From positions 248,001-312,000 of the forward strand of contig NZ_CP060412.1 of assembly GCF_014297575.1 (NCBI RefSeq): a DNA stretch of 64,000 bases, given 5' to 3'. Of this stretch, positions 36,847-42,462 are shown one piece after another; position 1 is the stretch's first letter, and each line of letters begins with the position of its first letter. The stretch comes from Dyella telluris. Its GTDB lineage: Bacteria; Pseudomonadota; Gammaproteobacteria; Xanthomonadales; Rhodanobacteraceae. Under the pieces are notes generated by a model. It did not search any database. It was not told where the DNA came from and was given only the letters and a program-made list of their open reading frames with translations. The translations under genes were made by a program, and so were the position numbers.

Positions 36847-39597
36847 TCAGCTCGCCTCGGGTGGCACCAGACGCAGGTGCGAGTTGCCCTGGCGTCGCCC
36901 GGGGGTGAGCAGTTGCGCGATGACGGCCGGCTCCACCGGGCGCGAGTACAGGAAGCCCTGGCCTTCGACGCAACCTGCACGCAGCAGGAAGCGGTGCTGT
37001 TCTTCGGTTTCGATGCCTTCGGCGATCGGGCTGATATCCAGCCGCCGGCACAGCGTGAGCATGGCTTCGATGATGGCGCCGTCGCTGCCATCGTCCGGCA
37101 GGCCAGCGACGAAGCTCTGGTCGATCTTCAGGTAATCGATGGCGCGCATCTTCAGGTAGCTCATCGACGAATAGCCGGTACCGAAATCGTCAATGGCCAC
37201 GCTCACGCCCAGTGCGTGGAGCGCGTGCAGCGTGCGCTCCATTTCCTCGCCGAGGCGCAGGATCGCGCCCTCGGTGATTTCCAGCATCAGCCGCGCCGGC
37301 GACAAACGGCGCGCCTCCAGCAGCATGCGGATTTCGTCGACGAAATTGGCCTGACCGAACCAGTTCGCGGACACGTTCACCGCCATGCGCAGCGGCGGCA
37401 GGCCGGTCGAATCCCATTCGTACATCTGCTCGCAGGCCGCCTGCAGCACCCACTGGTCGATGCGGCGGATCAGGCCGAGCTTCTCCGCCATGGGGATGAA
37501 TTCACCCGGTGAGATCAGCCCGCGCTGTGGGTGGAACCAGCGCAGCAAGGCTTCGACGGCCACGATGCGGCCGGTGCGCATTTCCACGGTGGGCTGATAC
37601 ATCAGCCGGAACTCATTGTCAGCCAGCGCCTTGCGCAGTTCCGACGCCAGCGCAATGCGGCGCCGCGCATCCGCCTGCATGCGCGGCGAATAGAAGCGGA
37701 ACGCGTTGCGCTCTTCTGTCTTGGCCGCGTACATCGCCGCGTCCGCGTTGGTGATCAGCGTGGGCACATCGGTGCCATCCAGCGGAAAGCAGGCAATGCC
37801 GATGCTGGCGCTGAGTGCCAGTTCATAATCACCCACCGCGAACGGCGCCGACAGCACGGTCAGCAGGCGCCCCGCCAGGGCGCTGGCCTGCTCGCGCGAA
37901 TGCATGGCGGGAATCAGTACGGTGAATTCGTCACCGCCGATGCGCCCCGCCACGCCCTTGTCGCCCAGTTCATAGGCAATGCGTTCGGCCACCTTCACCA
38001 GCAGGTGGTCGCCAATGGCGTGCGTGTAGCTGTCGTTCACGGCCTTGAAGGCATCGAGGTCGATGAATACCACCGCTGCCATGCCGCGGTCGCGCTCGGC
38101 GGCGGTGACCGCCTGTACGCAGCGCCGCTCGAACTCGGCTCGGTTGGCCAGGCCGGTGAGCGTATCGTGCGCGGCCATGTACTGCAGGCGCTGCTCGTTC
38201 GCCTTCGCCGCGCTGATGTTGTTGATCACGGCTACGTAATGCTGCACTTCGCCTTCCGCGTTGCGGATGGCGCTGATGCTGAGCAGTTCCGGGTAGCTGG
38301 TGCCGTCCATGCGCCGGCTGCGCACTTCGCCGACCCAGTTGCCTTCAGACTCGATGGTGTCCCACACCGATTCGGGCAGCAGCGAGCCGTCGGCCAGGCA
38401 GCGCAGGTCGTCGAAACGCAGGCCCTGAAGGGCCTGCACGGTAAATCCGGTCATGCGGATGTGCGCGGCATTCACGCGGGCCACGCGGCGGTCGGCGTCG
38501 GCGATGATCACGCCCTCGGCAATGCTGGCCAGGGCCTCCGAAGCAATGCGTCGCTGCTGCTCCAGATTCACGCGCTCGGTGATGTCGCGCATGATGGACT
38601 GGCGCACGCTCTTGGTGCCCCAGTGCGTCACGCTGCTGCGCATTTCCACCGGCCGCAGTTCCTCATCAGGGCCCTTCAGTTCGCCGGTCACTGCGCCATC
38701 GGCCCGGTGCAGCAGCGGATTGAAGAACGAGGACAACTGCTCGCCCGCCAGATGATCCACGTCGCGCCCGGTCCACTGCAGCGCCGTGCGGTTCGCGTCG
38801 AGGATGCGCCCGCTGTCCTCGTCGACCATCAGGATGGCGTCGGCGGCGCTGTTGAACAGCACGCTGTAGCGCTCCTCCGTGCCGCGGATGCGGATCAGGA
38901 TGCGTCGCGCCGTGCGCATCCAGATCAGCGAGGCGGCGCAGGCGGTAAGGAACACCCCGATGAACAGCACCCGTCCCAGCCAGATGGCGCCCTGCGCCAC
39001 CTCCAGCGAGAAGTCGTTGGTGAGCGGCTCCAGCTCGCGGTTCAACCCATTGATGCGGTCCATCTGCCACTGCAGCCAGGCGTGCTCGGGCCGGCCGCCT
39101 GCATAGGCGTCCTGCAGCTCCCCGGCCACGTCGTTCAGGCGCGACAGCGGACGATCCGCCTCACGCCAGAGGGACACGGCCTCGCGCATGTGCGGCGCGC
39201 CGGTGCAGTAGCGCAGCATGAAGATCATGCCGGGTTCGGACTGGGCCAGGATCTTGCCGCGCTGGAAGGCCTCGTGGACCTGCGTCCGGTCGTAATGGCC
39301 CGAGGCAATGGCGTCGCGTGCCCAGCCGTCGGAGCGGAGCAGCTGGTAGCTTTCGTGGAAAGCGGCGAGACGCGTGGCCTCGCCGTTTTCCGCATAGCCG
39401 AGCAGGTCAACCACCGCCTGCTTCTGCGCCTTGCTCCAGACACTCTCGCCGTTGAGGAAACCGGCGAGAGTGACCTGAACCTGGAGGGCTCCCCAGGTAA
39501 GCGCGAGAATCAGGCCGATAACGGCCACCAGCCCATAGGCCAGTGGCCTCAGGCGCTGGGACAGCGGTCTTGGAGAGGTGCTACGGATCAAATCCAT
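36847..39597 (-). CDS. Membrane GGDEF-EAL protein with two PAS domains
   Basis: c-di-GMP enzyme of 916 residues. Layout: membrane helix about 20-45, periplasmic sensor about 46-215, second helix about 216-238, PAS domains at about 245-365 and 370-485 (the first followed by QSIMRDITERV, the second by VAVINNISAAK), GGDEF about 490-650, EAL about 665-905. The cyclase motif is intact (RIGGDEF), and the phosphodiesterase side keeps EALLRW, the DDFGTGYSS loop, EITEG and PIAEGIETEEQ. Both activities are therefore possible; which prevails cannot be told. It is nine bases from the convergent msrA. Confidence 0.93.
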   Translation of the reverse strand: MDLIRSTSPRPLSQRLRPLAYGLVAVIGLILALTWGALQVQVTLAGFLNGESVWSKAQKQAVVDLLGYAENGEATRLAAFHESYQLLRSDGWARDAIASGHYDRTQVHEAFQRGKILAQSEPGMIFMLRYCTGAPHMREAVSLWREADRPLSRLNDVAGELQDAYAGGRPEHAWLQWQMDRINGLNRELEPLTNDFSLEVAQGAIWLGRVLFIGVFLTACAASLIWMRTARRILIRIRGTEERYSVLFNSAADAILMVDEDSGRILDANRTALQWTGRDVDHLAGEQLSSFFNPLLHRADGAVTGELKGPDEELRPVEMRSSVTHWGTKSVRQSIMRDITERVNLEQQRRIASEALASIAEGVIIADADRRVARVNAAHIRMTGFTVQALQGLRFDDLRCLADGSLLPESVWDTIESEGNWVGEVRSRRMDGTSYPELLSISAIRNAEGEVQHYVAVINNISAAKANEQRLQYMAAHDTLTGLANRAEFERRCVQAVTAAERDRGMAAVVFIDLDAFKAVNDSYTHAIGDHLLVKVAERIAYELGDKGVAGRIGGDEFTVLIPAMHSREQASALAGRLLTVLSAPFAVGDYELALSASIGIACFPLDGTDVPTLITNADAAMYAAKTEERNAFRFYSPRMQADARRRIALASELRKALADNEFRLMYQPTVEMRTGRIVAVEALLRWFHPQRGLISPGEFIPMAEKLGLIRRIDQWVLQAACEQMYEWDSTGLPPLRMAVNVSANWFGQANFVDEIRMLLEARRLSPARLMLEITEGAILRLGEEMERTLHALHALGVSVAIDDFGTGYSSMSYLKMRAIDYLKIDQSFVAGLPDDGSDGAIIEAMLTLCRRLDISPIAEGIETEEQHRFLLRAGCVEGQGFLYSRPVEPAVIAQLLTPGRRQGNSHLRLVPPEAS

Positions 39598-39668
39598 GGC
39601 GTCCTTTTACACGACCGTTCCATAAAGCTGCATCTCGTCCCGTTACGCCATCGACCACGGGATCCCCG

Positions 39669-40442
39669 TTACGCCGCCTGCTCTTCGACCCCGCCAACCT
39701 CGTGCTGCAGGAGGCAGCGCTCAAGGCCGTAATGCAGGCTTACATAACTGCGTTCAATACATTCACGCACGTGCTCCACTTCCTCCGCGGCGGGCTGGCT
39801 GCCCATCAGGGTGCAGACGATCTCCAGCGCCTCCCAGGGATGAGTATCGTCATATGCCGCGTGTAGCTGAAGCCAACGCAGGGTGGCCTTGCGACCGGCC
39901 TCCGGCAGGCTGTTGGCATACGCCACACTGTCGAAGACCTTCTGGGACCACTCGCCCGTGACACCCTCGATAGCGTAGTTGGTCGCCGCGATGCCTGCAG
40001 CCAGGCTGTCCCGGCCGCTGACGTCGTGGCACCAGTCCGCCGCCGTCTGGGTGCCGCGGGGCGGCATGCCATCCAGCACCTCCTCCCGCGATACGCCGGC
40101 ACCTTCGGCCCAGTCCAGCCAGTACTCGGCATGGTTCTGCTCCACGCGGATATTACGTACCAGCCAACGTCGTGCCATGTTGTCGCCGGCACTCCTGCCA
40201 TAACGTGTCTTCAGCAGGTTTAGTGCCATGAAGGACGGGAAGCGTTCGATCAGCGACCAGGTGCCGACCATGAAGTTGCGCATCGTTGCCAGGTCAATGC
40301 TGCCTTCGCTCATCATGTCCCACATCACATGGTCGCGAACGCTCCGGCGGGCGGGTTCGCAGGCCTCGATCATCTCGCGCGCCCACTTCGGGTAGCTGGA
40401 AATTTCGGTCAGCGAGCCGGTGCGTACAGTGTTGGTGTTCAT
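39669..40442 (-). CDS. UndA-like haem-oxygenase-fold iron oxidase
   Basis: All-helical protein of 257 residues, about the length of Pseudomonas UndA, which turns medium-chain fatty acids into 1-alkenes (lauric acid to 1-undecene). Sequence databases often label such genes TenA-like or iron-containing redox enzyme. Putative iron ligands of this diiron-type family are in place: ExxH in NIRVEQNHAEYW (E101, H104), E159 in AIEGVTGEW and H194/D198/H201 in LHAAYDDTHPW. I recognise the motifs NIRVE.NHA.YW and DDAHPWEALEI from memory of UndA; no alignment was run. ATG at 40442 has GGAG before it. It stands alone, convergent to nothing and next to a MAPEG gene. Confidence 0.7.
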   Translation of the reverse strand: MNTNTVRTGSLTEISSYPKWAREMIEACEPARRSVRDHVMWDMMSEGSIDLATMRNFMVGTWSLIERFPSFMALNLLKTRYGRSAGDNMARRWLVRNIRVEQNHAEYWLDWAEGAGVSREEVLDGMPPRGTQTAADWCHDVSGRDSLAAGIAATNYAIEGVTGEWSQKVFDSVAYANSLPEAGRKATLRWLQLHAAYDDTHPWEALEIVCTLMGSQPAAEEVEHVRECIERSYVSLHYGLERCLLQHEVGGVEEQAA

Positions 40443-41313: not shown

Positions 41314-42333
41314 TCAGGGATGTGCAGCCGTCACCGTGCGTGCGATGTCGGCGAACAGCTGGTCGCGCTCCCTGGCGGTCGTCGCCGAATCCATCAGGAA
41401 CGCGGTGATGAGCAGCTTGCGGCCGTCTGGCCAGGTGACGATGCCCATGTCGTTGTAGGCCGCCGTGCGGCTGCCCAACGATCCGCTGGTGCCCGTCTTG
41501 TCTGCAAAGCGCAGGCCTGGCGGCAGGCCGGCGCGCAGACGGTTGGGGATGGTCTGCGCCTCCATCAAGGCCAGCAGGCGCTGCGTGGACGCGGGCGACA
41601 GCAGCTCCCCGCCCTGCAGCTTCTGCAGGAACACGATGGCGGCATCCGGCGTGGTGCGATTGCGCGGGTCCTTCAGGAAGGCCTGGTAGCCCCGGTTGTA
41701 CCGCTGCTTCGCCGCCTCGTCGGTTTCATGCTCGGGCACCTGTCCGCCCGGTGGCAGGCCGCCGAAGATGCGTCCGATGCCAGCCTCGTCCAGATCCACC
41801 CGCATGCCGTCGATGCCATGCGCCCGGAAGTACGCCATCACCACATCCGGGCCACCCACCGTGCGGATCAGCGCGTTCACCGCAGTGTTGTCGCTCTCGC
41901 TGACGGCAGCCTTCAAGAGCTGCTCGATGGTGAAGTCCATGCGCTCGCCATGGAAATGCGCGCCCACCGAAGGGATCGCGGAGCCGCCCTGCACCTGCTC
42001 ACGCGTGATCGACACCAGCTGCTGCAACGAAAGCGTGCCCTCATCCACGCGCGACAACACGGCGGCGGCCACCGGCGCCTTGAACACGCTCATCATCGGG
42101 AAGGCGACTTCGGCGTTGACGCGTGCCGACGCACCGCTCGACAGATCCAGTACGGCGATGCCCAGCGTGGCCGGCAGCGCGCGTTGCGCAAGCGCGTCCA
42201 GCGAGTGCTGGAGCGCCGCGTCGGCATGGACGGCTTTTGCCGGCTCCGTCGCAATCGACACAGGCGACATGCTGGCGCATGCCAGCGCGAAGATGGCGGC
42301 CGCCAGCGAACGGCATGCATAGGGGAAGGTCAT
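41314..42333 (-). CDS. Class A beta-lactamase
   Basis: Exported serine beta-lactamase of 339 residues with signal peptide (about 1-30). Catalytic elements: SVFK (S82, K85), SDN (147-149) and KTG (279-281). The general-base Glu seems to be in VDLDEAGIGR (E183), where the usual ExxxN has Gly instead of the last Asn, as in some class A2 enzymes that carry His there. Next to it an insertion of about 35 residues (GGLPPGGQVPEHETDE) enlarges the omega-loop region, which could widen the active site. The chain is about 50 residues longer than TEM. No AmpR-type regulator is adjacent. Confidence 0.85.
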   Translation of the reverse strand: MTFPYACRSLAAAIFALACASMSPVSIATEPAKAVHADAALQHSLDALAQRALPATLGIAVLDLSSGASARVNAEVAFPMMSVFKAPVAAAVLSRVDEGTLSLQQLVSITREQVQGGSAIPSVGAHFHGERMDFTIEQLLKAAVSESDNTAVNALIRTVGGPDVVMAYFRAHGIDGMRVDLDEAGIGRIFGGLPPGGQVPEHETDEAAKQRYNRGYQAFLKDPRNRTTPDAAIVFLQKLQGGELLSPASTQRLLALMEAQTIPNRLRAGLPPGLRFADKTGTSGSLGSRTAAYNDMGIVTWPDGRKLLITAFLMDSATTARERDQLFADIARTVTAAHP

Positions 42334-42462
42334 GCGGATTCCTTGCCGATGGGTTTGCGGCCGACACTGTTGCAGCCGGTCATGGCAAAGCCGGGGCAGC
42401 GGCCTGTCCATCGTCGGACGGGCCACTGTGGAGCCCTGCGCCATGCGCAGGGCTCCAACACC

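Follow-up and report, generated by a model that had tools for sequence, protein, structure and literature searches.

A putative UndA-family fatty-acid decarboxylase and its sensor-GGDEF-EAL partner gene in Dyella telluris and other Rhodanobacteraceae

The undA-like gene and its product

The window, a stretch of 64,000 nucleotides from the Dyella telluris genome (NZ_CP060412.1, positions 248,001 to 312,000), contains two adjacent genes on its minus strand which are the subject of this study. The first (39669..40442, start codon at 40442) is an undA-like gene coding for a haem-oxygenase-like diiron oxidase of 257 amino acids plus stop; the plus-strand reading of 39669-40442 is interrupted by stops. 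The second (36847..39597), directly downstream on the same strand, codes for a membrane protein of 916 amino acids with sensor-PAS-PAS-GGDEF-EAL architecture and is called the partner in the following.

A sequence-only reading had proposed that the first gene encodes an UndA-like protein in a Rhodanobacteraceae host, and sequence scores, iron ligands, predicted fold and tree all bear this out. The two motifs it quoted, NIRVEQNHAEYW and HPWEALEI, are exactly present in the minus-strand frame, and the nearest named homologs are from Dyella. With phmmer the best matches were the P. syringae 'TenA homolog' 3oql (E 1.7e-75) and the two UndA sequences 4wwj and 6p5q (E 8.3e-73 and 1.4e-72); the next match was CADD with an E of only 0.03. 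The predicted haem-oxygenase-like fold matches solved UndA and is much nearer to it than to CADD, TenA, PqqC or BesC. In the tree, for which a single distant UndA-like row on a very long branch served as root, the window protein is placed beside Pseudomonas UndA. BesC, SznF and CADD had no rows in this tree, so the separation from these families rests on the sequence and fold scores.

The diiron ligand set of three His and three carboxylates, which defines a motif class of haem-oxygenase-fold diiron oxidases (PMC13108848), is complete and had been numbered correctly. Counted from the start codon, E101 and H104 lie in the codons of residues 101-104 at 40131..40142, E159 at 39966..39968, and H194, D198 and H201 in the codons of residues 194-201 at 39840..39863, all on the minus strand. 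All six are invariant in 66/66 aligned homologs, as is W190, the proposed radical origin in UndA (PMC13108848), and the sequence blocks around these residues are unchanged. In a separate alignment one cluster representative named for P. aeruginosa (P0188, 504 members) reads ELNQADYW, with Q replacing H104. The other 14 rows there have H, and the Q may reflect an isolated variant or else an error.

Hence the protein resembles UndA of Pseudomonas (PDB 4wwj, 4wx0, 6p5q) in predicted fold, ligands, W190, length and conserved motifs. It differs in that it is only 42-47% identical, that its host belongs to another bacterial family and likely has iso-branched medium-chain acids, and that it has another gene partner on the other side. 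We consider the protein likely to be a fatty-acid decarboxylase of the UndA family, i. e. a haem-oxygenase-fold diiron enzyme which converts a medium-chain acid to a terminal alkene. To call it a candidate 1-alkene producer, as had been done from the sequence, is thus reasonable, and the gene adds a further enzyme to the already known UndA family. UndB and OleT share with UndA the product class, 1-alkenes (PMC6410514), but UndB is a membrane desaturase-like protein (PMC6410514) and OleT a P450.

The labels of homologs in the databases are misleading, as had been anticipated: they read 'TenA family transcriptional regulator', 'PQQ biosynthesis protein C' or 'iron-containing redox enzyme'. Together with a weak match to Pfam TENA_THI-4 (24.5 against a cut-off of 22) they could suggest that a self-sacrificing p-aminobenzoate synthase of the CADD type, a TenA thiaminase or PqqC was mistaken for an UndA. 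CADD (PDB 1rcw, 8va9) indeed has the haem-oxygenase fold and the same three-His/three-carboxylate motif (PMC13108848). However, the score for the CADD subfamily (NCBIfam TIGR04305) was 41.5 bits against a cut-off of 200, which, with the phmmer result and the fold, led us to reject this identity. PqqC was rejected on sequence and fold scores, and TenA is unlikely, as TENA_THI-4 only just exceeds its cut-off and the predicted fold is much nearer to UndA. Taken as a whole, this explanation is hardly credible. In the own genome (4.99 Mb, one contig) the undA-like gene is the sole match above the Pfam cut-offs of Haem_oxygenas_2 and TENA_THI-4; each of these families has one additional match below its cut-off.

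Distribution of undA and the downstream partner

A strong UndA match was found in 131 of 197 Rhodanobacteraceae genomes. Counting all matches down to E 1e-3 gave 132, but the match in one genome (G088, 8.4e-4) was judged too weak. All genomes of the window's genus (20/20) and of a Luteibacter-type genus, that of G089 (23/23), were positive, which makes 43/43 for the two genera together. In a sample of 200 genomes from the order there were 29 matches, every one in the window's family. An even sample of the class yielded 3 matches at E 1e-30 or better among 369 genomes, the own genome included; Pseudomonas, where UndA is common, counts for little in this sample. Among the best 120 homologs of each listing, the named ones came from Dyella, Rhodanobacter, Luteibacter, Frateuria, Dokdonella, Oleiagrimonas, Pinirhizobacter and Fulvimonas. 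Two undA copies, 81% and 73% identical to that of the window and each followed by a partner gene, are present in one genome of the window's genus (G013; L060 and L061). In G166, a further genome of the family, undA is split over two frames at a contig end.

The architecture of the partner was assigned with Pfam, and the protein carries the motifs RIGGDEF and EALLRW. Its N-terminal sensor domain (residues 1-240, 38878..39597, minus strand) gives an all-helical model, with about residues 43-205 taken to be periplasmic; Pfam gives no family above cut-off for it, and a homologous domain is present in Pseudomonas RbdA. A terminator-like site was looked for in the 71 bp between the undA stop and the partner start (39598..39668) and none was found. 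Probably undA is co-transcribed with the downstream sensor-GGDEF-EAL gene, and thus alkene emission and control of cyclic diguanylate (c-di-GMP), i. e. of biofilm versus motility, are likely coupled. On the other side, the second gene upstream of undA (41314-42444, minus strand) is a class A beta-lactamase-like frame, as judged by eye from SVFK, SDN and KTG.

The position of the partner is kept in relatives. We read the neighbourhoods of 143 loci, 133 of them with a distinct UndA; the Rhodanobacteraceae-type ones are a selection from the 131 positive genomes. In 57 of 59 distinct Rhodanobacteraceae-type loci the partner lies downstream of undA, in 54 within 120 bp when the longest frames are taken. 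In the remaining two (L169, L180) contig ends cut the partner, the beginning of which is visible. Among the 57, L051 has a partner split over two frames: one of 315 codons next to undA holds the N-terminal part, and the rest lies in another 917 bases away. By simple pattern the GGDEF motif is kept in 56/57 partners and E-[AT]-L-x-R-W likewise in 56/57, which makes cyclase as well as phosphodiesterase activity possible.

When the first 240 residues of the partner were compared with the 197 genomes, a strong match (E 1e-28 or better) was obtained in 135. Of these 130 have undA and five do not; 61 of the 197 genomes have neither gene. These counts take genomes as independent, with relatedness uncorrected. 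The sole undA genome without a strong partner match is G166, cut at its contig end. Within the 197 genomes of the family, therefore, no undA without a partner was seen, and the partner can stand without undA. Exceptions came from two metagenome assemblies (L122 and L128, UndA 43% and 49% identical), which had no partner in the fetched flanks. The genome of L128 (G736) has one sensor-domain gene elsewhere (L205), away from undA, and that of L122 none in the same search. At a distant UndA-like locus (L168, 37%) the upstream GGDEF-EAL gene has no such sensor domain and reads SSDEF.

The partner and Pseudomonas RbdA

The linkage of undA to a GGDEF-EAL gene is already known in Pseudomonas, where undA is reported to be always associated with rbdA (Rui 2014 as cited in PMC10614000). 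In our set, a GGDEF-EAL gene was located upstream of undA in 71/71 Pseudomonas loci, within 120 bp in 69. In 45 of the 71 distinct loci (e. g. L090, L110) an additional GGDEF match lies downstream of undA on the opposite strand; in these, undA thus has a c-di-GMP gene on either side. When ten Pseudomonas genomes were searched with the Dyella partner's sensor domain, each gave exactly one match (E 3.3e-10 to 8.7e-19), and by coordinates all ten fall inside the fetched undA loci.

The partner could therefore simply be the Dyella RbdA, and the neighbourhood the known Pseudomonas arrangement. The general architecture is alike: the two proteins share the N-terminal sensor-domain family, PAS, GGDEF and EAL (RbdA is PA0861), and the reported association of undA with rbdA points the same way. 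Yet RbdA is encoded upstream of undA and the partner on the opposite side, and the partner scores 219 bits to RbdA (5xgb) as against 409 to 5m3c and 340 to the 'Motility regulator' 4rnh. The comparison also took in nine paralog loci. For the N-terminus of 71/71 Pseudomonas partners, an unlinked Rhodanobacteraceae paralog outscored every undA partner. The closest paralog group (five loci, including G000:C1:1081546) had median identities to the Pseudomonas proteins of 37% in the N-terminus and 55% in GGDEF-EAL, the undA partners of 28% and 35%; the median scores of GGDEF-EAL against Pseudomonas RbdA were 468 bits for the unlinked paralog and 202 bits for the undA partner.

In a tree of 74 sensor domains the partner clade (100/100), which includes the orphan partners and an unlinked copy, is apart from RbdA (99/98). 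A single clade of partner, orphan partners and RbdA without the paralogs was rejected in the approximately unbiased test (p-AU 0.00075), with long branches in play. The unlinked copy (L198, G104:C43) is a second sensor domain in an undA genome; it is 40% identical to the window's partner and has other neighbours.

Paralog scores, median identities and the tree test thus led us to reject the partner as an RbdA ortholog, and we regard a mere repetition of the Pseudomonas arrangement as very unlikely. Since the partner is not the RbdA ortholog, undA is linked to distinct members of one sensor family in the two lineages, downstream in one and upstream in the other. A three-gene ancestral array followed by differential loss would account for this as well as two separate captures.

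Possible products and the link to c-di-GMP

Pseudomonas UndA takes free C10-C14 acids as substrates, with the carboxylate on Fe1; O2 gives a peroxodiferric species, and the products are CO2 and a 1-alkene (PMC13108848, PMC6410514). If the Dyella protein has the chemistry and chain-length range of its Pseudomonas counterpart, a free medium-chain fatty acid would bind at its Fe1, O2 would be activated by the diiron site, and CO2 and the terminal alkene would be released. Six Dyella species contain iso-C11:0 (3.2-6.1%), iso-C11:0 3-OH (4.3-6.4%) and iso-C13:0 3-OH (2.3-4.1%), and straight C12 is absent among the acids listed, entries below 1% not being shown (PMC12789092, Table 4). Because these medium-chain acids are iso-branched, iso-branched 1-alkenes are predicted. 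By UndA chemistry iso-C11:0 would give 8-methyl-1-nonene and iso-C13:0 would give 10-methyl-1-undecene, and the natural products are probably alkenes of this kind, perhaps with some 1-undecene besides. As far as the acid table of PMC12789092 goes, iso-C13:0 itself is absent and only its 3-OH form is listed.

10-Methyl-1-undecene has been reported. PMC9330711 lists it as emitted specifically by D. yeojuensis, now named Luteibacter yeojuensis at NCBI, among the strains of that study, D. japonica included; no enzyme is named for it. The volatiles were analysed by solid-phase microextraction with gas chromatography-mass spectrometry, with an area threshold of 2% and identification by matching to the NIST library. 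This listing agrees with the idea of iso-alkenes as a consistent observation, not a pre-registered one. Taken together, the records of the compound (Pseudomonas reports, a review of P. aeruginosa volatiles and D. yeojuensis) fit UndA lineages, its identity being tentative. Papers retrieved under six names of such alkenes contained no occurrence of 8-methyl-1-nonene. The open literature yielded nothing joining 1-undecene or UndA with Rhodanobacter; 1-undecene and Dyella matched only via 10-methyl-1-undecene or a reference list, and 1-undecene and Luteibacter only via an isolate list.

Several points weigh against the production of such alkenes by the Dyella enzyme. The identity to Pseudomonas UndA is low, and seven substitutions (S63, F71 and V161 among them) are common to the five rows of the window's genus where the others agree. 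No activity data for any Rhodanobacteraceae UndA were found in the open literature. PMC9330711 lists 10-methyl-1-undecene for only one of its two species named above, and plain 1-undecene is nowhere in its main text despite three P. aeruginosa strains; for this reason, and because identification was by library match, its alkene identifications should be taken with caution. P. aeruginosa (marked '#') and Pseudomonas PICF6 in culture with a fungus are also on record as sources of the compound (PMC3444334, PMC8840531), which hence may be a library artefact or the product of another enzyme, e. g. UndB.

The low identity and the genus-specific substitutions would also suit an enzyme of the UndA clade with altered chemistry or substrate, for example one that oxidises a 3-hydroxy or non-fatty acid in some other way and makes no 1-alkene. 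Only about a dozen haem-oxygenase-like diiron oxidases are functionally validated, and enzymes with near-identical ligand sets carry out different reactions (PMC13108848); moreover, 3-hydroxy iso-acids occur in Dyella. Yet ligands, W190 and the surrounding blocks are unchanged, and one member of the family has been listed as a source of an alkene like those predicted. We therefore judge such a change to be unlikely and keep to the decarboxylase.

A further-reaching interpretation is that UndA in Rhodanobacteraceae turns iso-C11/C13 acids into branched volatiles such as 10-methyl-1-undecene, that the sensor-GGDEF-EAL protein encoded beside it senses the alkene, or the acid from which it is made, and sets the c-di-GMP level, and that Pseudomonas likewise evolved or retained this coupling, with a non-orthologous protein of the sensor family encoded on the other side of undA. 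This would be a module leading from volatile hydrocarbons to c-di-GMP. We put it forward as a speculation that is rather improbable in its entirety, and several findings weaken the idea of a sensor specific for alkenes. Among the 369 Gammaproteobacteria the sensor domain occurs in 13 genomes, 11 of them without an UndA match; by eye, with no family search made, no shared neighbour of these sensor copies was seen. The overlap of UndA and sensor at class level, with the own genome excluded, had a p of 0.064. A strong partner match is kept in 5 of the 66 Rhodanobacteraceae genomes lacking undA; no undA remnant was found beside the fetched orphan copies, the upstream side being off the contig in one of five (G138). 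RbdA is described as a manganese-inducible phosphodiesterase (PMC10294637), which offers another possible signal. Finally, 2 of the 22 GGDEF places in the own genome carry the sensor domain, so a partner of this sensor family would arise by chance in about 1 of 11 cases.

The interest of the system lies in the presence of undA throughout two genera, in a conserved c-di-GMP partner with swapped side and non-orthologous identity, and in a possible connection with a branched volatile. 1-Undecene has been described as a signature of Pseudomonas species (PMC8246062). If the enzyme is active, its presence in all sampled genomes of these genera and in two thirds of those from a common soil family would break this rule. 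UndA of Rhodanobacteraceae might be the enzyme behind a branched alkene volatile for which none has been named, and the family provides a second lineage for the question of why an enzyme that makes alkenes adjoins c-di-GMP control.
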